Source: a virus
DNA length: 20,519 nucleotides
IMG/VR virus record: IMGVR_UViG_3300031539_000390
Coordinates: 1 to 20,519 of that record
Reading direction: 5' to 3' (one strand)
Part shown: positions 1,471 to 20,519 of the stretch, piece by piece
How the letters are laid out: every line of letters starts with the position of its first letter
Position numbering within the stretch: the first letter of the stretch is position 1
Position numbers and translations under genes: made by a program
The notes under the pieces: generated by a model
Seen by the model: only the letters and a program-made list of their open reading frames with translations
What the model was told of the DNA's origin: nothing
Databases searched by the model: none

Positions 1471-1767
1471 ATGAAAAAATTACAACTAAAACAAATTATT
1501 AAAGAAGAAATTAAAAAGGTTTTAAAAGAAGAAAAAATAAGTCAATATGGTACCCATTCTAATGGACGCTTGTATTTTCAAATTGGAAATGATTTTTATA
1601 AGATTGATCACTTCTCAGGTGGTACTGCAATTAGAAAAGCAAAACAGATACCAACAGGATTTAGAAAACAAAATAAACCAGATTTACAATTTGCCAACCA
1701 AATTATTAAAAGTATTAAAAATAAAAAAAATGATATGGGCAGTTGGTATAGTCTTTCATACTCTTAA
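1471..1767 (+). CDS. Small protein with the MKK..LK.IIKEEI leader
   Basis: This is a 98-residue basic protein. Residues 1-20 (MKKLQLKQIIKEEIKKVLKE) form a predicted amphipathic helix nearly identical to the start of the proteins at 15886, 16170 and, less closely, 16527. The remainder (SQYGTHSNGRLYFQIGNDF onwards) is an unrelated small domain with aromatic and Lys-rich stretches, and no known family was recognised. The leader carries IKE at 10-12 and LKE at 18-20, which fit the (L/I)-x-E rule of T4-type prohead protease sites. Capsid targeting is therefore a reasonable inference but is not shown. It sits between two paralogous structural genes like an inserted extra gene. AAGGAAA lies just upstream of the ATG. 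Confidence 0.7.
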   Translation: MKKLQLKQIIKEEIKKVLKEEKISQYGTHSNGRLYFQIGNDFYKIDHFSGGTAIRKAKQIPTGFRKQNKPDLQFANQIIKSIKNKKNDMGSWYSLSYS

Positions 1768-4402: not shown

Positions 4403-7400
4403 ATGGATATAATACAAATACCTACTTCTATTGAAAAAGTTGATAAGATATTTCATATTGCTGATATACATATAAGGCCATATAAAAGACACCACGAATA
4501 TAAACAGGTTTTTCAATCATTATACAACTCGATAAAATTACAAGCCACTAAGAACTCAATCATTGCAGTATTAGGAGACATTGTTCACGCAAAAACAGAA
4601 ATGTCACCCGAACTTATAGATACAGTTTCTGATTTTTTTAATAATCTTGCCTCATTGTGTTATACGATTGTTATTCCTGGAAACCACGATGCCAATCTAA
4701 ATAATAAAAATAGAATGGATGCAATATCCCCGATTTTGAGAAATATAAATAATAAAAATCTTATTTATCTAAAGGATAGTGGTGTATATCAGTTTGCAGA
4801 TTTGTATTTTGTAAATATGTCTGTATTCAATAATACGAAAAAACTTGATTTGAATGGTATAAAAGAACTAAAACCGAAAATAGCATTATTTCACGGTATT
4901 GTAGATAAAGCAATAAATAAATTCGGGTTTCATTTTAGAAATGAAAAAATAGATAAAGATGTATTTAGTAGTTATGATATCGTTTTATTAGGTGATATTC
5001 ATAAACATCAGTATTTAGCACCAAACATTGCTTATCCTGGTTCCTTGATACAACAAAACCACGGCGAAGATTTAGAACACGGTTATATTTTATGGGATAT
5101 GACTGATTTTTCAAGTGAGTTTATTAAAATACCAAACGACTACGGTTATTATACATTAGAAATTAGAAATGGAATTATTCCCGAGGTGACTGATATTCCA
5201 AAGAAGTGTCGCCTAAGAATACAGGCATATGATATTATAGCCGGTGATTTAACAAACTTGATTTTGGAGATAAAGAAAAAATACAAACCTACTGAAATAA
5301 CTATAAATAGAATTAATAGTATTGGCATATTAGATATTAATGGAGCAAAGTTAGATTTACCAAATATTACTGATGTTGATTATCAAAATAAACTAATAGA
5401 AGATTTTGTAGTTCAAACATATTCTGTAGATAAAGAAATAGTAGATGCTATAAAACAAATCAACATAGAAACAAACTTAGAAATAGAAATAGAAGATACA
5501 GTAAAAAATGTAAGATGGACTCCAATAAGATTTGAATGGTCAAATATGTTTTCTTATGGTGAAGGAAACTATGTAGAGTTTGCTGATATGAAAGGTGTTA
5601 TAGGTTTATTTGGACCAAATAGGGACGGGAAAAGTGCATTTGTAGATTCATTATCATTTTGTTTATTTGATAAAGCCAGCAAAGATTTCAAACCAATTAA
5701 TATTATGAACAATAAGAGTGATGAGTTTATATGTAAGGTTGTATTTGAACTATCAGGCAGACAATACTTTATTGAAAGAAAAGTTTGGAAAAATAAATCA
5801 GGAAACCCAATGTATAAAGTAAACTTTGGATTTTATGATGATAAAGGGGTTGAACAATCATTGAATGGAGAAAATAGATGGGGAACAAACAAAAATATAG
5901 ACTCATATATTGGTTCATTTGAAGACTTTGCTCTAACAACATTTAGTATGCAGGGCAAAAGTGCAAACTTTATTGAGAAAGGACATTCAGACAGAAAAGA
6001 TTTAATTATTCAGTTTGTAGGTTTAGGTTTATTTGACCAACTATTTGAAATAGCCGCAGACAAAAATAAGGAAATAAATATTTCTCTAAAGACTTTAGAA
6101 ACAGAAAACTGGGATGATAAACTAATCGCAGTCGAAAATAATTTTACTAAATATGAAACAAAGTTTAATAATAAAGATAGCGAGTCTAAAGTTATTATTG
6201 ATAATATAGTTAATCTTGAAAATGAAATTAAAGATTTGACTTTTCAACTAATAGATATTGATGAGGCTTTATCTATTACAGAACTGAGATTGGACCAACA
6301 AACTTATAAAAATACAGGTCTTAGACTTGGGTCTTTAGTAAGTAACATTACATCCGTGATACAAGATGAAACAAAACAGTTAGATGAATATAAAGAAAGA
6401 ATAGATATTTTTAATTTACTAAAGGTTGAAGATTTATATAATGAATTAGCATCGCTCGTGTCAGATAAAAAAGATATTGAGTCTGAGATTAATACTTTAC
6501 ACGTAAAAATCGATAATGAATTAGATAAAATGAAAAAACTTACTGAGTTAGAATATGACCCAGATTGTAATTATTGTATGAATAATATATTTGTAAAAGA
6601 TGCAATTGCTACTAAAAAACTTTTAGATGGACATGAAAAACAGATGGAAGATTTATCAGAGCGTCTATCTCATTTTGAAGAAATAATTAAAACAAAATCA
6701 AACATAAAAACTGATTATATTGAATATAAAGATATATTAAAAAGTGCAAATGACTTAGAAATAAAATCATATAAGAATGCGGTGTTAAAAACTGAGATTG
6801 AAGATGATATTGAAGAGAATAAAATATTAATAAAAGAAAATGATAATAAGATTAAAAAGTATTATTATTTAGAAAAATCTATAAAATTTAATGAGAATCT
6901 TCAAATTAATATTGATGAAAAACAATTAGAAAATAATAAACTTAAAACACAAAAACTAGATATTGATAAAGAAACATTAGATATTTATGGTAAAATGAAG
7001 GTTGAAGAGTCTAATATTAAAACCTATAAAGATAATATTAAGAGGTTAAATAAACTAAGAGTAAAATCTGAAAGCTATAAGTATTATATTAGTGCTATCA
7101 AAAGAGATGGTATTCCCTATGACTTGATTACAAAAATAGTTCCAGCAATAGAGGCAGAAATAAATAATATTCTAAATCAAATCGTTGATTTTTCTATTGT
7201 TATAGATTTAGATGAGTCAAAAAACATAAATATGTATATTGTTTATGATGAAGAAAACTTCTGGACATTGGAGTTAGCAAGCGGTATGGAACAATTTATT
7301 GCTTCTATTGCTATCAGAGTTGCTCTAACAAATATTTCACACTTACCAAGACCGAACTTTTTAATAATCGATGAAGGATGGGGAACCTTAGATGCAGATA

Positions 7401-7555
7401 ACTTAAACTCTGTATCTATGTTATTAGATTATTTGAAAACACAGTTCGAGTTTGTATTAATAATATCTCACGTCGGCCAAATAAAAGAAGTTGCAGATAT
7501 TATCATAGAACTCAAAAAAGAGGATAATTTTAGTTCTATAAAACACCCTTTCTAA
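4403..7555 (+). CDS. Fused Mre11-Rad50 (SbcD-SbcC, T4 gp47-gp46) recombination nuclease
   Basis: This 1050-residue protein carries both halves of the complex that resects double-strand ends for recombination-dependent replication. Residues 1-~330 are a metallophosphoesterase: HIADIH (Asp21, His23), LGDIVH (Asp59, His62), PGNHD (93-96), then FHG and LLGDIHKHQ. From ~370 an SMC-type ATPase follows: Walker A GPNRDGKS at 404-411, long charged coiled coils, a zinc hook Cys722-x2-Cys725 at the apex (DPDCNYCMNN), the returning coil, signature LASGMEQF at ~958, and Walker B FLIIDEGWGTLD (Asp990, Glu991). In T4 these are separate genes (46, 47). There is no stop or start at the junction, so the fusion is real in this sequence. 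AAGGA lies before the ATG. Confidence 0.95.
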   Translation: MDIIQIPTSIEKVDKIFHIADIHIRPYKRHHEYKQVFQSLYNSIKLQATKNSIIAVLGDIVHAKTEMSPELIDTVSDFFNNLASLCYTIVIPGNHDANLNNKNRMDAISPILRNINNKNLIYLKDSGVYQFADLYFVNMSVFNNTKKLDLNGIKELKPKIALFHGIVDKAINKFGFHFRNEKIDKDVFSSYDIVLLGDIHKHQYLAPNIAYPGSLIQQNHGEDLEHGYILWDMTDFSSEFIKIPNDYGYYTLEIRNGIIPEVTDIPKKCRLRIQAYDIIAGDLTNLILEIKKKYKPTEITINRINSIGILDINGAKLDLPNITDVDYQNKLIEDFVVQTYSVDKEIVDAIKQINIETNLEIEIEDTVKNVRWTPIRFEWSNMFSYGEGNYVEFADMKGVIGLFGPNRDGKSAFVDSLSFCLFDKASKDFKPINIMNNKSDEFICKVVFELSGRQYFIERKVWKNKSGNPMYKVNFGFYDDKGVEQSLNGENRWGTNKNIDSYIGSFEDFALTTFSMQGKSANFIEKGHSDRKDLIIQFVGLGLFDQLFEIAADKNKEINISLKTLETENWDDKLIAVENNFTKYETKFNNKDSESKVIIDNIVNLENEIKDLTFQLIDIDEALSITELRLDQQTYKNTGLRLGSLVSNITSVIQDETKQLDEYKERIDIFNLLKVEDLYNELASLVSDKKDIESEINTLHVKIDNELDKMKKLTELEYDPDCNYCMNNIFVKDAIATKKLLDGHEKQMEDLSERLSHFEEIIKTKSNIKTDYIEYKDILKSANDLEIKSYKNAVLKTEIEDDIEENKILIKENDNKIKKYYYLEKSIKFNENLQINIDEKQLENNKLKTQKLDIDKETLDIYGKMKVEESNIKTYKDNIKRLNKLRVKSESYKYYISAIKRDGIPYDLITKIVPAIEAEINNILNQIVDFSIVIDLDESKNINMYIVYDEENFWTLELASGMEQFIASIAIRVALTNISHLPRPNFLIIDEGWGTLDADNLNSVSMLLDYLKTQFEFVLIISHVGQIKEVADIIIELKKEDNFSSIKHPF

Positions 7556-13261: not shown

Positions 13262-13702
13262 ATGATTTTATATAATTCACATGTAAGTGGTTCTTTAGAA
13301 GTAGATGAAAATGTATTTATTACAGGTATTCTCTATGCTTCTGAAAAACATTTTTATATTAACCACCCTACCGAGGAAGGTAAGAAACTGGTATATGGAA
13401 CTCTCGAGGGTCCCGAAAACGCAGTTTATTTACGCGGCAGGTTGAACGGTGATAATGTTATAGAATTACCAGACTATTGGACCAAGTTAGTTGATGAAAA
13501 AAGTATTACAGTTTTCTTTACTCCAATAGGTCGAGGTCAAATTTTATCTGTTGATTATATTAAAGATAATAAGATATTTATTAAAAAATCATTACTGACA
13601 CCATTTGGAAAAATATACTGTAATTATTTAATATTTGGTGAAAGAAAAGATATTCCAAAACTGAAGACAAAGATAGACCCAAAAAATATAGTGGATGTAT
13701 AA
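13262..13702 (+). CDS. Small fibre-tip-like protein
   Basis: This 146-residue protein begins with a beta-type repeat (HVSGSLEVDENVFITGIL), followed by KHFYINHPTEEGKKLVYGTL and EGPENAVYLRGRL (residues ~29-61), then LPDYWTKL and FTPIGRGQ. The K-x-F-x-I-x-HP ... LEGPE-x2-VY-x-RG ... LPDY series is a domain I recognise from C-terminal parts of many phage and prophage fibre proteins, where it usually follows a longer fibre. Here it is a stand-alone small gene, so it may cap or trimerise one of the upstream fibres. AGAGGAAATAAATG gives a strong start. The gene overlaps the next one by 8 bases if that begins at 13695. Confidence 0.7.
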   Translation: MILYNSHVSGSLEVDENVFITGILYASEKHFYINHPTEEGKKLVYGTLEGPENAVYLRGRLNGDNVIELPDYWTKLVDEKSITVFFTPIGRGQILSVDYIKDNKIFIKKSLLTPFGKIYCNYLIFGERKDIPKLKTKIDPKNIVDV

Positions 13703-15884
13703 AATGAGCATAATGGATTTATCAGTATACATAGCAGAACAAATAATTATTGATGAAATAATGCGCAGTGATATGCCCCAAATAAAAGGTAAAGATTATC
13801 CTGACGTATTAAAAATATTCAAAGAGTATGGTGTTCCTTATAGACTTCAAAATATGAACATCGATGATTTGTTTCCACTTCAAAAAGATTTTATTCAATC
13901 TAAAGTTGATAATATTGTGAATACAATGAATACAGACAAGGATATGCAACCTATATTTATATCATCTGATTATTATATTATTGATGGTCACCACCGTTGG
14001 TTGGCTAATAAACACATTAAAAATCCAATAATGAAAGTTATCAAAGTTGGTTATCCAAAGAATGCAGCACTAAAATTATTTGACAAGTTAGATGAAAAAT
14101 TAAATGAAGCAGTTAGTAAGATAACAAAAACGGTTGTTATTTTCCCAGGTAGATTTCAGCCTTTCCACCGTGGTCATTATTATTCATATAATGATTTAGT
14201 TAGTAAGTTTGGAAAAAATAATATTTATATTGCTTCTTCAAATGTGACCGGTGGAGATAAATCTCCATTTACATTCCAAGATAAGAAAACTATTATTACT
14301 AAATTATTTGGTATTCCTGGAACTAAAGTTGTTCAAGTAAAAAATCCATATAGACCCGAAGAAATATTAAAAACATTTGACCCAAAGACAACTGCAGTTA
14401 TTGTAGCAGTTGGTGAAAAAGATGCAAATAGATTAGGTGGTAAATATTATGTCAAATATAAAGGAAGAGTAGATGAAGGTTATTTAGATAAAGGATATGT
14501 ATATATTGTTCCTCAATTACAACTAAAGATACAAGGTAAAACAATTTCAGGAACAGAAGTTAGAAATAATTTTTCTAAAGAATTATTTAAAGGATTATAT
14601 CCTAAATACGATGACGCAATCTATAATGCAATGAAACAAAAATTATCAGAAGCATTAATATTAGAAGGTGGTGCGTATGGACATTTGACCCATCCATTTG
14701 AAGATATGGATTTGACATTTGGTGATTTGAAAACAATGATAAGTTCTGCATTAGAAGGTAAGTTAGACTTGACACAAGAAAAAACAGATGGTCAAAATCT
14801 TATGTTTTCTTGGATAGATGGAAAATTAAAAGTTGCAAGAAATGCATCTCATACTAAAAACTTTGGTAAGGGTGCATTAGATATATCTGGTGTTTCAAGT
14901 ATGTTTTCGGGTAGAGGGGAAATACAAACTGCATTTACAGAAGCAGCAAAAGATTTAGAAGCAGCAGTTTCAAAATTATCTCAAAAACAAAAAGATAAGA
15001 TATTTGCTAATGGTAAAAAGTTTATGAGTGTAGAAGTAATATATCCTCAAACAACAAATGTAATACCTTATGATTTTTCTATGTTAGTATTTCACGGAAC
15101 ATTTGAGTATGACGAAAACGGAAATAAAATAGGTGCAGATAAAACCGATGCATCAATTTTAGCAGGAATGATTAAACAAGTAAATGCAGACGTTCAAAAT
15201 ACATTTCAAATTAGAGCACCAAATAATTTGAAATTACCTAAAGTTCAAAACTTTTCATCTCAAAAATCTTATTTTTTCAGTAAATTGAATAAATTACAAA
15301 ATGAATTTAAATTAAAAGATAGTGATACTGTTCTTATGTATCACCAGACTTGGTGGGAAAACTTTGTTTCTAAACAAGCCAAGTCTATGAAATATGGAAT
15401 ACCAAATGACGTCTTGGTAGATTTAACAAAACGTTGGGCATATAATAATAAATCATATAAGATAAATGATATTAAAAAGAGAATTGATAATGATACATTT
15501 AGAACTTGGGTCGATAGTTTTGATAAAGGTTCTTACACTCAACAATTCAAAGATAATATTAAACCTTTTGAATTATTATTCTTGGAATTAGGAGCACAAG
15601 TATTAAAGAATATAAATGTATTTTTGGCTGTAAATCCAAATGATTCAATACAGAAAATGAAAACTTCGGTTGATAAAGCAATAAAAGATATTGAAAGTTC
15701 AAATGATGTAAATGCTATGGCTAAAATGAAAGCACAATTGGAAAGACTTAATTCTATAGGTGGTATAGATGCAGTCATACCTTCAGAAGGAATAACATTT
15801 ATGTTCAATGATAAACTATACAAATTTACAGGAACATTCGCACCAATTAATTCACTATTAGGAATATTAAAATATGGGAACTAA
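13695..15884 (+). CDS. ParB-like / HxGH nucleotidyltransferase / ATP-dependent ligase-like fusion enzyme
   Basis: This 729-residue protein has three domains. Residues ~1-135 are ParB/sulfiredoxin-like (IIDGHHRWLAN, 97-102 core). Residues ~145-310 are an NMNAT/cytidylyltransferase-type fold with GRFQPFHRGH at 152-161 and ISGTEVR at 284-290, as in NadR and NadM enzymes that join a nucleotide to a phosphate compound. Residues ~325-729 look like a covalent nucleotidyltransferase (RNA/DNA ligase fold): motif I EKTDG with Lys363, motif III SVEVIYP (Glu447), motif IV EGITF (Glu698), motif V KFTG (Lys710). All key residues appear intact. The substrate is unknown; NAD metabolism, RNA end repair or nucleotide modification are possible. 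The start is uncertain: ATGs at 13695, 13704 and 13713, none with a good Shine-Dalgarno; 13704 follows the upstream stop directly. Confidence 0.85.
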   Translation: MYKMSIMDLSVYIAEQIIIDEIMRSDMPQIKGKDYPDVLKIFKEYGVPYRLQNMNIDDLFPLQKDFIQSKVDNIVNTMNTDKDMQPIFISSDYYIIDGHHRWLANKHIKNPIMKVIKVGYPKNAALKLFDKLDEKLNEAVSKITKTVVIFPGRFQPFHRGHYYSYNDLVSKFGKNNIYIASSNVTGGDKSPFTFQDKKTIITKLFGIPGTKVVQVKNPYRPEEILKTFDPKTTAVIVAVGEKDANRLGGKYYVKYKGRVDEGYLDKGYVYIVPQLQLKIQGKTISGTEVRNNFSKELFKGLYPKYDDAIYNAMKQKLSEALILEGGAYGHLTHPFEDMDLTFGDLKTMISSALEGKLDLTQEKTDGQNLMFSWIDGKLKVARNASHTKNFGKGALDISGVSSMFSGRGEIQTAFTEAAKDLEAAVSKLSQKQKDKIFANGKKFMSVEVIYPQTTNVIPYDFSMLVFHGTFEYDENGNKIGADKTDASILAGMIKQVNADVQNTFQIRAPNNLKLPKVQNFSSQKSYFFSKLNKLQNEFKLKDSDTVLMYHQTWWENFVSKQAKSMKYGIPNDVLVDLTKRWAYNNKSYKINDIKKRIDNDTFRTWVDSFDKGSYTQQFKDNIKPFELLFLELGAQVLKNINVFLAVNPNDSIQKMKTSVDKAIKDIESSNDVNAMAKMKAQLERLNSIGGIDAVIPSEGITFMFNDKLYKFTGTFAPINSLLGILKYGN

Positions 15885-15885
15885 G

Positions 15886-16155
15886 ATGAAAAAATCAGAA
15901 TTAAAAAAAATAATAAAAGAAGAAATAACAAATTTCCTAACAGAAGAATCTCACAATGACCATTCTCTTATGAGATTTTACAATATAACAATGAAAGCTA
16001 GCTCAAGTAGTGAAGCAACAAGACTTATTAATTCACGAACAGATAAGATAACAAATAGAGCTAAATTACAATCGTGGATAGATGTTTTAGAAGATGAAAA
16101 TTATCATACTGAAGCTGAATATGCATACAATAAATTAAAAACATTAAAACATTAA
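15886..16155 (+). CDS. Small protein with the MKKSELKKIIKEEI leader (1 of 3 in tandem)
   Basis: This 89-residue protein is not recognised as a family. An in-frame ATG exists at 15874, but the start at 15886 is chosen because translation from it gives exactly the leader MKKSELKKIIKEEITNFLTE shared with neighbours, and GGGAA lies suitably upstream. The leader has IKE at 10-12 and LTE at 18-20. The rest is polar and helical (RFYNITMKASSSSEATRL, then AKLQSWIDVLEDENYHTEAE) and looks like a small helical hairpin. It follows the fusion-enzyme stop by one base, so it is coupled to it. A packaged internal head protein is a possible role by inference from the leader. Confidence 0.7.
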   Translation: MKKSELKKIIKEEITNFLTEESHNDHSLMRFYNITMKASSSSEATRLINSRTDKITNRAKLQSWIDVLEDENYHTEAEYAYNKLKTLKH

Positions 16156-16169
16156 TAGAAAGAACTACA

Positions 16170-16517
16170 ATGAAAAAATCTGAATTAAAGAAAATTATCA
16201 AAGAAGAAATTAAAAATATTTTAAAAGAAGATTTTGATAATTCAATATACATTAAAGGAAAAGACTTAAAACGTATTGGTTGGATAGTTATTAATAAACG
16301 AAAAAATGATGGTCGTCCTTTATACACATTAGAAAGTGGTGATGATAAATCTTGGGGTGCAACTTATAGAATGGGAACATCAAAACATTCAGAAAGCAGT
16401 TCTTTGTTTTATACTATTCCTATAAAGGTAGAAGGAACTAATAGATTTAGAATGCTAACAGATGACGAAAAATGGTCACGTGCATATGCATATGAAGAAA
16501 TTGAAATTAAAAAATAA
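16170..16517 (+). CDS. Small protein with the MKKSELKKIIKEEI leader (2 of 3 in tandem)
   Basis: This 115-residue protein has leader residues 1-20 identical in pattern to the previous gene (IKE at 10-12, LKE at 18-20). The codons differ at several synonymous positions (for example TCT for TCA and AAG for AAA), so the peptide and not just the DNA is conserved. The body is a compact beta-rich domain with many aromatic residues (GWIVINKRKNDGRPLYTLES, SWGATYRMG, SLFYTIPIKVEG) and a charged end EEIEIKK. Function is unknown. The Shine-Dalgarno is weak (AGAAAGAA). Confidence 0.7.
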   Translation: MKKSELKKIIKEEIKNILKEDFDNSIYIKGKDLKRIGWIVINKRKNDGRPLYTLESGDDKSWGATYRMGTSKHSESSSLFYTIPIKVEGTNRFRMLTDDEKWSRAYAYEEIEIKK

Positions 16518-16526
16518 GGAACTTAA

Positions 16527-16940
16527 ATGAAAAAATCAGAATATAAAAGAATATTAAAAGAAGAACTTGGTTTAGTATTACCAGACGGAACTATAAACGG
16601 TGACCCAAAAGGAAAAGAAAAAGCAACTACTAAAAAATACAAACAAAAAGAAAAGAATATTACCGAAGCAACAAGCAATGTAATATATGCTGGTATTAAT
16701 TTTCTTGTTGTAGTTAAAATTAAAGAATCAGGTGGATATATTCAACTAATTCCGCGCACAACAAAGGATATAGATGTATTAGATACATATGGAAGAGAAC
16801 GAGCAACTATGTTTTTAGAAACTAAGTTAAAACAACAGTTGGGTTTTCGAGTATGGTATTCAGGCGATGGGTCAGCAGGGTTGAACTTCAGATTTAGTAT
16901 TATTAATATTGAAGAACTTTTAAAAAGTAAAATAAAATAG
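16527..16940 (+). CDS. Small protein with divergent MKKSE-type leader (3 of 3 in tandem)
   Basis: This 137-residue protein starts MKKSEYKRILKEELGLVLPD, a diverged copy of the shared leader: LKE is kept at 10-12, but the second site has become LPD. A Lys-rich linker follows (residues ~26-44) containing ITE at 45-47, directly before a small alpha/beta domain (NVIYAGINFLVVVKIKE, then RVWYSGDGSAGLNF). If the leader is a removable targeting peptide, cleavage could occur at ITE just before the folded part. No family was recognised. AAGGAACTTAAATG supports the start. It ends in TAG, the only TAG stop in the window, which overlaps the next gene's Shine-Dalgarno. Confidence 0.7.
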   Translation: MKKSEYKRILKEELGLVLPDGTINGDPKGKEKATTKKYKQKEKNITEATSNVIYAGINFLVVVKIKESGGYIQLIPRTTKDIDVLDTYGRERATMFLETKLKQQLGFRVWYSGDGSAGLNFRFSIINIEELLKSKIK

Positions 16941-16948: not shown

Positions 16949-17635
16949 ATGGCTCAATTTACAAGAAGTCAATTCGATAATATGTCAAAGGACGAAAAAG
17001 ATGAATTGATGAAGAAAAAATCGGATAGACCCAGTGCAAGACCTATGGGTGATATTTATCCACAGACTATAAAAAGAATATTAGAAGGAGAAACACCAAA
17101 GATTACTTTGTCAATGTATGATAGAGAAAGTACAATGACAGATGAAGAAAAACAAGAACGTTTAGACGAAGCAACAGAAAGAGAAAATAGACATAAACTA
17201 TTTGCTGATTTACGAAAAGAAACAAATCCAACATTCTGTCCTAAATGCGGTAAGTTTATGAGTGACAGATTAGATGCTAAGTTTTTTGTAATAAGAAAAA
17301 CTTGCTATACCTGTGTTATCAAATATGAACGTAAAATACAAGATGCTGGTCTATGGAGACAATACGAAGATAAGATTATGACTGATAATAAATTATCATT
17401 TTTGAGAGATGTAAAAGAAGAGGTTGAAGATTATTTAAATGGTGGTCTCAAAAGAGAATATAAATACGTGACAGAAGAAGGTAAAATTGAAAAATGGACT
17501 AACGATGCTTATGATGAAACAAAAGTATTTTTAGAAAATACATTGAAAGAGATAACTACTATACAAGAAGATTTATCTAGTTATTTAAATGAACTAAATG
17601 AGGTATTGAAAAATGACGTCGCAATCAGCGCCTAA
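16949..17635 (+). CDS. Zinc-ribbon protein upstream of terminase; small-terminase candidate
   Basis: This 228-residue, highly charged, mostly helical protein has a central zinc-binding pair, Cys97-x2-Cys100 (FCPKCGK) and Cys119-x2-Cys122 (TCYTC). The flanks are Glu/Lys-rich helices, with a coiled-coil-like C-terminus (ENTLKEITTIQEDLSSYLNE). It overlaps the start of the large terminase gene by 23 bases, so the two are translationally linked. Small terminase subunits usually sit exactly here and bind DNA through a helical N-terminus and a coiled-coil oligomerisation core. A zinc ribbon is not a typical T4 gp16 feature, so that role is inference from position. A DNA-binding late regulator is an alternative. 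Confidence 0.75.
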   Translation: MAQFTRSQFDNMSKDEKDELMKKKSDRPSARPMGDIYPQTIKRILEGETPKITLSMYDRESTMTDEEKQERLDEATERENRHKLFADLRKETNPTFCPKCGKFMSDRLDAKFFVIRKTCYTCVIKYERKIQDAGLWRQYEDKIMTDNKLSFLRDVKEEVEDYLNGGLKREYKYVTEEGKIEKWTNDAYDETKVFLENTLKEITTIQEDLSSYLNELNEVLKNDVAISA

Positions 17636-19223
17636 TTTACGTGACATAATAAAAGAAGAATATTCAAAGTGTGTTAAGGACCCAATATACTTTATCAAAA
17701 GATACTGTATAATCCAACATCCTATTCGTGGTAAAATACCATTTATATTATACGGGTTTCAAGAAAACATTTTAGCAGCATTCCTAAAGTTTGATAGAAA
17801 TATAATTTTGAAAAATAGACAAATGGGTCTATCAACATTAGCTTCGGCCTATGCACTTTGGTTAATGACTTTCTTTGATGATAAGAATATATTAGTTATA
17901 GCAACAAAACAAGATGTTGCAAAGAATATTATTTCTAAGGTTAGAATTATGCATAATCTATTACCAAGTTGGATGAAACGTAAATGTACAGAAGACAATA
18001 AATTAGGATTACAATATAACAATGGTTCAAAGATATATGCTAGCACCTCGGCAGGAGACGCCGGCCGTTCAGAAGCTGTATCTTTACTTATATTAGATGA
18101 GGCTGCATTTATTCCAGGAATGGAAGAACTATGGGGAGCATTACAACCTACACTTTCTACAGGTGGTGATATTATTGTATTATCAACTCCTAATGGTGTT
18201 GGTAATTGGTATCACGAAACATTTGTAAAAGCAGAAGAAGGAAAGAATAATTTTTATCCTATTACTCTTCACTGGACATTACACCCCGAGAAAGACCAAG
18301 ACTGGAGAGATTTACAAGACATAGAATTAGGACCAAGATTAGCAAAACAAGAGTGCGATGGTTCATTCTTAGCATCTGGTGATACTGTTATTGCCGGTGA
18401 ATTATTAGAATGGTATAAACAAACTCACGTTATGGAACCTATAGAAAAAACAGGATTTGATAGAAATGTTTGGATATGGGAATATCCTGATTATACGAAA
18501 TCTTATATGTTAGTATCTGACGTTGCAAGAGGAGATGGGAAGGATTATTCAACATTCCATATCTTAGAACTTGAAACACTAAATCAAGTTGCTGAGTATC
18601 AGGGAAAACCTGGAACACAACAGTTTGGAGATTTATGTGTTGAATATGGAACAAAGTATAATGACGCATTAATAGTTATGGAGAATGCTACGATTGGTTG
18701 GGCTGCATTACAAAGAATATTAGATAGAAGTTATAAGAATGTATTTTATAATGAAAATAAAAGTAATATTATTGATGATAAGGTTATGACTAAATATGTT
18801 GGTAATATGATTAAGATGGAAAAGAAATCAGTTCCTGGATTTACAACTTCTGTAAAATCAAGACCATTAATAATTTCAAAGATGGAACAATATTTTAATG
18901 AAAGAAGTGTAATAGTTAGATCGACAAGATTAATAAATGAACTATTTACTTTTATTTGGAATGCAGGGAAAGCAGAAGCAGCAACTTCAAACTACAATGA
19001 TGACTTAGTAATGGCATATGCAATTGGTTTATGGGTTAGAGATACCGCGCTTAGGTTGAGAGAACAATCAAAAGAATTGACTCGAGCAACTTTAGACGGA
19101 TTTAGAGTAGAAAAAACTGCAGTCAAATCAACTCCATTTTTTATTGGTGGTGCATTACAAAAGGATCCATACAAAATAAGTGTAGGAAAATCAGAGAACT
19201 GGGACACAAGAGAACTATTATGA
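17613..19223 (+). CDS. terL: Terminase large subunit (T4 gp17 type)
   Basis: This 536-residue protein is the ATP-driven DNA packaging motor and headful nuclease, acting at the portal. The ATPase domain shows an adenine-motif Gln (Gln50 in YGFQENI), a variant Walker A KNRQMGLST (67-75), Walker B LLILDEAAF (Asp162, Glu163) and the coupling motif VLSTPNG. The RNase-H-like nuclease domain shows acidic residues in MLVSDVARGDG (Asp303), VMENATIGW (Glu357) and YNDDLVMA (Asp463/Asp464). Length is somewhat shorter than T4 gp17 (610). The N-terminal segment EYSKCVKDPIYFIKRY is characteristic of T4-like terminases. Its stop TGA overlaps the ATG of the HD gene (ATGA), so expression is coupled. Confidence 0.97.
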   Translation: MTSQSAPNLRDIIKEEYSKCVKDPIYFIKRYCIIQHPIRGKIPFILYGFQENILAAFLKFDRNIILKNRQMGLSTLASAYALWLMTFFDDKNILVIATKQDVAKNIISKVRIMHNLLPSWMKRKCTEDNKLGLQYNNGSKIYASTSAGDAGRSEAVSLLILDEAAFIPGMEELWGALQPTLSTGGDIIVLSTPNGVGNWYHETFVKAEEGKNNFYPITLHWTLHPEKDQDWRDLQDIELGPRLAKQECDGSFLASGDTVIAGELLEWYKQTHVMEPIEKTGFDRNVWIWEYPDYTKSYMLVSDVARGDGKDYSTFHILELETLNQVAEYQGKPGTQQFGDLCVEYGTKYNDALIVMENATIGWAALQRILDRSYKNVFYNENKSNIIDDKVMTKYVGNMIKMEKKSVPGFTTSVKSRPLIISKMEQYFNERSVIVRSTRLINELFTFIWNAGKAEAATSNYNDDLVMAYAIGLWVRDTALRLREQSKELTRATLDGFRVEKTAVKSTPFFIGGALQKDPYKISVGKSENWDTRELL

Positions 19224-19711
19224 AAATAAACGAATTATCTAAAATAGAGAAAGCAATCGATTTAGCCCAAGACGTCCATTCAGGTCAATATAGAAAGGTA
19301 AGCAAAAAACCTTATATCATTCATCCATTCAGAGCATATCAAAGAGCAAGAGCAATGGGTTTATCTGATGATGTTCAAATCATAGCAGTTCTACACGATA
19401 CATACGAAGATGCTAAAAATAAAGCGTATGTTGCAGATAAAATTAAATCTATGTATGGAAATATAATCTGGAAATATATTTTATTATTATCTCACGATAA
19501 AGGTACAGATTACAATACTTACATATTATCACTGGCAAAGAAGAGTAATGTAGCCCTACAAGTCAAATTAATCGATATAATTGAGAACCTGTTAGATAAT
19601 GCGAGCCCAAAGCAAAAAGCCAAGTATTTATCTGGTTTGCTATATTTATTAAATAATAAGGTTAAAATCGATAATAAAATTGTGTCTCAAATAAAAAGTT
19701 TGACACAATAA
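19220..19711 (+). CDS. SpoT/MESH1-like HD hydrolase (probable small alarmone hydrolase)
   Basis: This 163-residue single-domain protein matches the HD hydrolase domain of Rel/SpoT and MESH1 enzymes, which remove the 3' pyrophosphate from (p)ppGpp. It has VHSGQYRK (Arg25), IIHP (His35), LHDTYED (His59, Asp60, Glu63, Asp64) and VKLIDIIENL (Asp119, Asn123). The spacing His35-His59 (24) and Asp119-Asn123 (4) equals that of Rel enzymes, so the catalytic set appears complete. There is no synthetase domain. The ATG overlaps the terminase stop, and the portal gene follows 22 bases later. A phage use could be to keep (p)ppGpp low during infection. Other HD substrates, such as NADPH for MESH1, are possible. 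Confidence 0.87.
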   Translation: MKINELSKIEKAIDLAQDVHSGQYRKVSKKPYIIHPFRAYQRARAMGLSDDVQIIAVLHDTYEDAKNKAYVADKIKSMYGNIIWKYILLLSHDKGTDYNTYILSLAKKSNVALQVKLIDIIENLLDNASPKQKAKYLSGLLYLLNNKVKIDNKIVSQIKSLTQ

Positions 19712-19733: not shown

Positions 19734-20519
19734 ATGGCAACATTGACAGAAAATGTATTCAAAACGCTTAAACGTTTATTCTCAAACGATATTATAGTTA
19801 GAAGAGTTGGTGATAAAAAGTTTAAAGTTATAGATACATACAACACTCAAGCAGTTGGTATGTTAGCAACAAATTACTTGGGTCGAAATTATAGTGTATT
19901 AAGATATAATACAACTAATTATGGATATAATCAATCTCTTTCAATCTTATCTCAAAGATTAATGCTATTTAGAGAATATGAATTGATGGATCAGGATCCA
20001 ATTATAGCATCCGCATTAGATTTATATGCAGAAGAAGCAACAGTAAAAAATGAATTTGGAGATATTTTAACTGTAAAATCTGGTGATAATGAAATAAAAG
20101 ATGTTTTAGATAACTTATTTTATGATATTTTAAATATAGATTTTAATTTGCTTCATTGGACAAGAAACCTTGTAAAATATGGTGATATGTTTATGAAGTT
20201 AGATTTAGCCGAAAAAATCGGTATTGTAGGTGTAATTCCTATCTCTCCTTATGTTGTTGAAAGACATGAAGGTCTAAACCCACATAACCCATCAGAAGTA
20301 AAATACAAAATAGATGGTCCAATCCTTCAAGGTATGTATGAGAACTACGAAATAGCTCATTTTAGAATGTTGAGTGACTCGAACTTTTTACCGTATGGTA
20401 AGAGTATGATTGAAGCAGCAAGAAGAATTTGGAAACAACTTACATTGATGGAAGATGCAATGTTGATACACAGAATAATGAGAGCACCTCAAAAAAGAAT
20501 ATTCAATATTGATGTTGGT
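19734..20519 (+). CDS. Portal protein (T4 gp20 type), 5' part
   Basis: The frame runs from ATG at 19734 to the window edge without a stop: 262 residues, about half of T4 gp20 (524). Portal rings form the head vertex through which TerL packages DNA and to which the neck attaches. Segments matching T4-type portals include MDQDPIIASALDLYAEEAT, LVKYGDMFMKL, the FRMLSDSNFLPYGKSMIEAARR region, and LTLMEDAMLIHRIMRAPQKRIF followed by NIDVG at the right edge. AAAGAGG lies 5 bases before the ATG. The order TerL, one small enzyme gene, portal is a compact packaging module; prohead protease and major capsid genes would be expected further right. Confidence 0.95.
   Translation, partial: MATLTENVFKTLKRLFSNDIIVRRVGDKKFKVIDTYNTQAVGMLATNYLGRNYSVLRYNTTNYGYNQSLSILSQRLMLFREYELMDQDPIIASALDLYAEEATVKNEFGDILTVKSGDNEIKDVLDNLFYDILNIDFNLLHWTRNLVKYGDMFMKLDLAEKIGIVGVIPISPYVVERHEGLNPHNPSEVKYKIDGPILQGMYENYEIAHFRMLSDSNFLPYGKSMIEAARRIWKQLTLMEDAMLIHRIMRAPQKRIFNIDVG

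Follow-up and report, generated by a model that had tools for sequence, protein, structure and literature searches.

What brings three nucleotide-handling domains together in one viral reading frame, and why does that frame lie next to genes for the phage head? The question arises from a T4-like marine phage, IMG/VR record IMGVR_UViG_3300031539_000390, positions 1 to 20,519 of which make up the whole stretch of DNA analyzed here (20,519 nucleotides; hereafter, the window). An original prediction read the frame as a single phage enzyme in which a ParB-like domain, an HxGH nucleotidyltransferase and a ligase-type covalent nucleotidyltransferase carry out successive steps on a nucleotide or nucleic-acid end. 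We favor, with a probability of roughly 0.58, a different reading, namely a polyvalent head polyprotein that is packaged, split into its enzymes by the prohead protease and then injected, probably for the repair of RNA (tRNA) ends.

Three domains in one open frame

The frame is open over 729 codons, as seen from the ORF list and the translation, and its likelier start is the ATG at 13704 (residue 4), which has GGA 8 nt upstream (Table 1). The single frame with three domains described in the original prediction is confirmed, and every listed motif was found: DGHHRW at D97-W102, GRFQPFHRGH at 152-161 (H158, H161), ISGTEVR at 284-290, and the ligase-type motifs KTDG (K363-G366), EVIYP (E447), EGITF (E698) and KFTG (K710-G713). 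The sequence thereby places the key active-site residues of all three domains where they had been listed.

Table 1. Features of the polyprotein gene and of its downstream neighbors (positions in the window)
Feature	Position	Strand	Basis
Whole ORF, 729 aa (start possibly 13704)	13695..15884	+	ORF and start-site inspection
N-terminal tag, aa 1-24, two [LI]xE (IAE15, IDE21); proposed capsid-targeting propeptide	13695..13766	+	motif count; tag family; low pLDDT aa 1-28
ParB/sulfiredoxin-fold domain, aa 24-132, DGHHRW aa 97-102	13764..14090	+	profiles, motif, predicted structure
Linker 1, aa 130-142, LDE134 and LNE138 (then A)	14082..14120	+	motif placement
HxGH nucleotidyltransferase domain, aa 144-318, GRFQPFHRGH 152-161, ISGTEVR 284-290	14124..14648	+	Pfam, predicted structure
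Linker 2, aa 314-326, LSE319 (then A) and ILE324 (then GG)	14634..14672	+	motif placement; low pLDDT
RNA-ligase-type covalent nucleotidyltransferase domain, aa 325-729	14667..15881	+	motif alignment, predicted structure
Motif I, K363-T-D-G	14781..14792	+	alignment of relatives
Motif III, Glu447	15033..15035	+	alignment of relatives
All-helical insertion, aa 511-687, between motif IIIa strand and motif IV	15225..15755	+	predicted structure
Motif IV, E698-G, and motif V, K710-x-T-G	15786..15833	+	alignment of relatives
T4-type terminase large subunit, head gene downstream	17613..19223	+	gene context
Portal protein, cut by window end	19734..20519	+	gene context

Structure prediction supports all three proposed folds, because the models match ParB, Noc and sulfiredoxin, NadM-type NMN adenylyltransferase, and RNA ligases; by sequence, the ligase and nucleotidyltransferase folds are more firmly supported than the ParB part. 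Residues 1-330 were modeled with a pLDDT of 73, and part of this model matches the ParB/sulfiredoxin fold (Foldseek E 6e-6 to ParB-N; VIA Z 9.7-11.3 against ParB, Noc, SerK and Srx). The gathering score of Pfam ParB_N was not reached (13 bits vs 26.3), and a PHROGs search matches ParB-like families. In the DGHHR-type motif, the D, G, second H and R are invariant in seven aligned relatives. An assignment to ParB is thus supported by predicted fold, PHROG matches and motif, while sub-threshold in Pfam.

The central domain scores above the gathering cut-off of CTP_transf_like (PF01467; 24.9 vs 21 bits, aa 149-291), with HxGH and SGTxxR both present, and matches two phage 'cytidyltransferase' families in PHROGs. 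Its part of the model matches NadM-type NMN adenylyltransferase (VIA Z 11.9), with which it shares the fold and the GRFQPFHxGH and SGTxxR motifs. It differs from this enzyme in its scores, far below the NadM equivalog and subfamily cut-offs of NCBIfam (25 bits vs 127; 22.4 vs 181.2), and in its middle region, which cannot be aligned; archaeal NMNATs align by sequence only with its first ~55 residues and its SGT stretch. A further difference lies among the relatives, where GxHH replaces HxGH in over half of the non-redundant nucleotidyltransferase domains, so that the first histidine of the catalytic motif has been lost in a large branch. NAD salvage appears less likely as the pathway, as NAMPT/NAPRTase was found in just one of the ten relatives searched and was absent from nine. 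A role in NAD supply, or in another nucleotide transfer, is possible for the HxGH domain.

For the C-terminal domain, an AlphaFold2 model of aa 312-729 built with 34 sequences reached a pLDDT of 86 and a pTM of 0.80. Its top PDB matches in Foldseek are fungal tRNA ligase Trl1, T4 Rnl1, archaeal RNA ligases and T4 Rnl2; the best E is 2.9e-3, and none passes 1e-3. VIA-align scores are moderate (Z 8.3 for a Naegleria RNA ligase over 191 residues, 7.7 for T4 Rnl1, 7.3 for Trl1). We rejected a DNA ligase because RNA ligases score best, with DNA ligases at Z of at most 6.0 except for the prokaryotic Pmar-Lig at 7.0. Residues K363, R382, E447, E698 and K710 correspond to motifs I, Ia, III, IV and V and are invariant in a 36-row alignment; the five motifs are kept in 47-48 of 49 non-redundant relatives, the one full exception being an intein insertion at motif I. 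Given this conservation, and CTP_transf_like above its curated cut-off, the three-domain pattern in the frame is not a product of chance.

The motifs, the nucleotidyltransferase fold and the best PDB matches are what the domain has in common with RNA ligases of the Rnl1, Rnl2 and Trl1 types. Unlike them, it has a large block of helices inserted after motif IIIa and ahead of motif IV, and the chain ends about 19 residues past K710 of motif V, so that the C-terminal domain which such ligases normally have there is absent from that place. It also differs in that the gathering score of Pfam RNA_ligase (PF09414) was not reached, with weak matches in 21 of 36 relatives (best E 0.011). The C-terminal 400 residues matched no convincing Pfam or PHROG family, and a sequence-profile search of the PDB with the ligase alignment returned chance matches only. 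By its sequence and its model, the domain is an undescribed phage family of RNA-ligase type, for which RNA ligation is the somewhat favored activity.

Insertions occur in and near this domain. At locus L003 (4583-7259), an intein-like insert (Intein_splicing 2.2e-8, just under the cut-off) immediately follows the lysine of motif I and is split between two ORFs (4583-5995 and 6051-7259). A Ros/MucR zinc-finger insert stands just before the ligase domain at L018 (5281-5920), and also at L012 and L001; in L018 the insert is possibly HNH-like and the flanking peptide is duplicated (LLTEGGAY ... LLIEGGAAGH).

A modular family with a C-terminal ligase-like domain

The ligase-like domain is encoded in at least 534 viral stretches in IMG/VR and in 3 of 50,697 phage records. 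Microcystis phage Mel-JY01 has a relative of 639 aa (WWT39297.1). An origin from a host gene was rejected, as only 3 of about 85,000 genomes contain the domain, all of them MAG contigs. Searching with the N-terminal half alone yielded two loci, both on contigs already found.

A survey of the fusion in other phages, proposed with the original prediction, places the ligase-like domain at the C-terminus of modular proteins of variable content. The 58 complete relatives are 402-1913 aa long, and in 57 the domain is C-terminal. Forty-three combine the nucleotidyltransferase with the ligase-like domain, six have ParB between the two, three have ParB ahead of both, and six have the ligase-like domain alone, with no detected nucleotidyltransferase or ParB; ParB thus occurs in just 9 of 58, in two orders. 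In sister polyproteins, a CCA-adding enzyme (PF01743, 5.8e-26) is followed by an HD domain. A zeta-toxin/AAA_33-type P-loop kinase module recurs in the family, as do three short unnamed modules, and relatives also have a module with a weak likeness to RegB (E 1.3e-3, under the cut-off). Some phages encode the kinase on its own, in a gene that bears a separate tag (MIKLKDLLxEG), and others carry it as a fusion. One relative of 1913 aa (L038, 1474-7215) encodes in a single frame the nucleotidyltransferase, ParB, CCA-adding enzyme, HD, RegB-like and ligase-like modules. Because modules and their order vary among relatives, we regard the window protein as one member of a modular family.

This variability weighs against the claim, central to the original prediction, of one multistep enzyme acting on one substrate: ParB is optional and mobile, six relatives have the ligase-like domain alone, and the kinase is free or fused. 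In its fullest form the claim would be that the infected cell makes a multifunctional enzyme that stays uncut and works on a nucleotide or RNA end with its three sites one after another, for example in NAD-linked RNA chemistry. Three intact active sites in one frame fit such an enzyme, as does a nucleotidyltransferase structurally closest to NadM-type NMNAT; we nonetheless think it unlikely, given also the changing order of modules, the position of protease-type motifs exactly in the linkers and of the gene among late head genes (both described below), and the absence of NAMPT from nine of ten relatives. RNA repair, a theme of the same prediction, is still the best functional theme, whereas multistep chemistry on one substrate is not supported, given the modularity and the linker motifs.

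Head genes and prohead-protease-type motifs

In 67 of 69 loci, the polyprotein gene has a T4-type terminase gene downstream of it, in the same orientation and at a median of 1.26 kb. Within the window, terminase and then portal follow the polyprotein gene, and the genes upstream include a virion structural protein. A T4 gp21-type prohead protease (PF03420) was found in 10 of 10 relatives checked and gp23 (PF07068) in 9 of 10; the window ends in the portal gene, with no gp21 there. Other genes of the window include one for an HD/phosphohydrolase-type protein (phrog_990; window 19220-19711), between terminase and portal, and a 1050-aa fusion of SbcD and SbcC homologues (T4 gp47/gp46; window 4403-7555); at locus L037 (9695-12487), an intein-like insertion (Intein_splicing 1.5e-3) interrupts the terminase gene.

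In T4, gp63 is both RNA ligase 1 and a tail-fiber attachment protein. The ligase-like domain might likewise be a virion assembly or attachment factor and not an RNA enzyme, a role with which the virion structural protein among the upstream neighbors and the listing in BFVD of an Rnl1 homologue as a tail-fiber attachment catalyst would agree. We consider this very improbable, as the catalytic motifs, needless in a structural role, are (nearly) invariant, and the sister modules are RNA enzymes.

The prohead protease of T4, gp21, cuts after L/I-X-E (PMC9026906). In eight of nine cases, the gp23 propeptide of these phages carries QL[LI]xE (or L[LI]xE/LIxE) followed by A, S, V or N at aa ~60-68. 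T4 gp23 is cut at this place. The window protein has six [LI]xE motifs (E15, E21; E134, E138; E319, E324), all within 50 residues of tag and linker and none inside a domain, a placement reproduced by 0 of 20,000 shuffles of the protein. Across the relatives' polyproteins, [LI]xE occurs in 92 of 128 internal segments preceding a module (72%; 54.4 in shuffles), in 5% inside domains and in 10% in other unassigned sequence, and Gly and Ala are overrepresented at P1' after the pre-module motif (4.9-fold and 3.5-fold). The relatives are not independent, and tight clusters keep a smaller excess (17/25 vs 11.2; 39/58 vs 24.2).

Junctions differ in how closely they follow this pattern. Before the ligase domain, 44 of 48 have [LI]xE within 45 aa upstream, and about a third are without Glu directly before GG (LLLM, LLQC, LLLCS). 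The junction of one short module, GDTV, was rejected as a strict [LI]xE site (11/22, no more than in shuffles), the looser [LIVMF]xE being found in 20/22, and the ParB junction was too rare for a count of its own. Inside the ligase domain, [LI]xE falls to 0.47 of expectation while other spacings are not depleted, a depletion whose significance is inflated because homologous positions are counted; in the nucleotidyltransferase core it stands at 0.79 (not significant), and elsewhere at 1.20 (terminase), 1.11 (SbcC/D) and 1.20 (other ORFs).

The motif also marks the N-terminus: 91% of 53 polyproteins have [LI]xE in their first 30 aa, compared with 26% among 137 large and 35% among 503 medium ORFs. 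The common tag is MNKLTEWLTKPFLxE, and whichever module is first comes directly after it. The solo ligase domain of locus L045 starts with MKFLKSYEEFLNENLILE followed immediately by GGSYGH, which resembles a T4 internal-protein propeptide and its domain. Four small genes of the window (1471-1767, 15874-16155, 16170-16517 and 16527-16940) start with the near-identical tag KKSELKKIIKEEI..L[TK]E, which the fourth gene follows less strictly than the other three; by this likeness they may encode further head cargo.

Prohead-protease-type motifs in the linkers suggest that the domains become separated. The protein might instead be packaged in the head and injected whole, as a polyvalent protein similar to the N4 vRNAP, with [LI]xE beyond the tag a mere feature of helical linkers. 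According to the passages on polyvalent proteins in PMC5512222, the N4 virion RNAP is packaged unprocessed, and the strict motif is missing from some modules here. Such a course appears improbable, since [LI]xE is 7-fold commoner in the linkers than in the remaining unassigned regions of these proteins and is avoided in the ligase domain, and since the linker motifs agree with the site in the gp23 propeptide.

A proposed packaged, cleavable string of enzymes

The folds, active-site residues, modular architecture, gene context and motif placement used here are read from sequence or prediction; packaging, cleavage, injection, ligase activity and an RNA substrate we infer. In the polyprotein mechanism, the gene would be expressed late from the head-gene cluster, and the N-terminal tag would act like that of a T4 internal protein, as a capsid-targeting propeptide directing the chain into the prohead core. 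A gp21-type prohead protease would then cut after the [LI]xE motifs of tag (E15, E21) and linkers (E134/E138, E319/E324), to yield a ParB/Srx-fold NTPase or nuclease, an NMNAT-like HxGH nucleotidyltransferase and an RNA-ligase-type enzyme self-adenylylating at Lys363. Ejected with the DNA, the freed enzymes would be active before phage gene expression. By the sequence signals, packaging in the head is quite likely and cutting at the linkers probable.

The likely task would be to reverse early host defenses that break RNA (tRNA) ends, and kinase, CCA-adding/HD and possibly RegB-like modules would be additions to the kit in other phages. The RNA-ligase-type domain and its sister CCA-adding, HD and kinase modules point to repair of broken tRNA, or of other broken RNA, as infection begins; sets of phage RNA-repair enzymes encoded in jumbo-phage genomes have been reviewed (PMC7824862). 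We hold tRNA repair as the purpose only tentatively. The whole course, in which the string is separated in the prohead at the linker sites and injected as a ready-made RNA-repair and counter-defense kit whose modules are swapped between marine T4-like phages, has in our estimate nearly an even chance.

Two known systems come close. Polyvalent proteins of phages and conjugative elements, with DdrB-like ParB domains, are likened to RNA-virus polyproteins in the passages of Iyer et al. (2017, PMC5512222) that describe them. The present family has several unrelated enzyme domains in shuffled order (402-1913 aa) and a late/structural gene context, and it shares with those proteins, as described in these passages, a multidomain build with ParB/Srx, swappable modules, the late-gene context and presumed injection with DNA. 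It differs in the means of release, which there is by embedded peptidases and here would be by a separate gp21-type prohead protease; the same passages mention neither an RNA-ligase/HxGH nucleotidyltransferase fusion nor release by a prohead protease. With T4 IPI-III and Alt (PMC9026906), the family shares a short N-terminal tag ending in [LI]xE, the head-gene context, and gp21 and gp23 (in the relatives' genomes); the T4 proteins differ in having a propeptide at one or both ends and another payload, whereas here [LI]xE also stands between enzyme domains. A literature search outside subscription journals found no head protease acting on an enzyme polyprotein, no packaged RNA ligase and no HxGH-nucleotidyltransferase/RNA-ligase fusion. 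New here is the combination: a polyvalent enzyme string has sites of prohead-protease type where its modules join, and its constant C-terminal module belongs to an undescribed RNA-ligase-type family.

If this reading is true, a T4-like capsid protease would mature the shell and also release a set of enzymes from one packaged polyprotein, and several activities would thereby be delivered at fixed stoichiometry before any gene is expressed. The presence of defense-relevant RNA enzymes in a head-gene cluster would be explained, and an undescribed RNA-ligase-type family, encoded on at least 534 viral contigs, would be added. The rule that [LI]xE occurs in tags and linkers and is avoided in domains would, moreover, predict head cargo from sequence alone.
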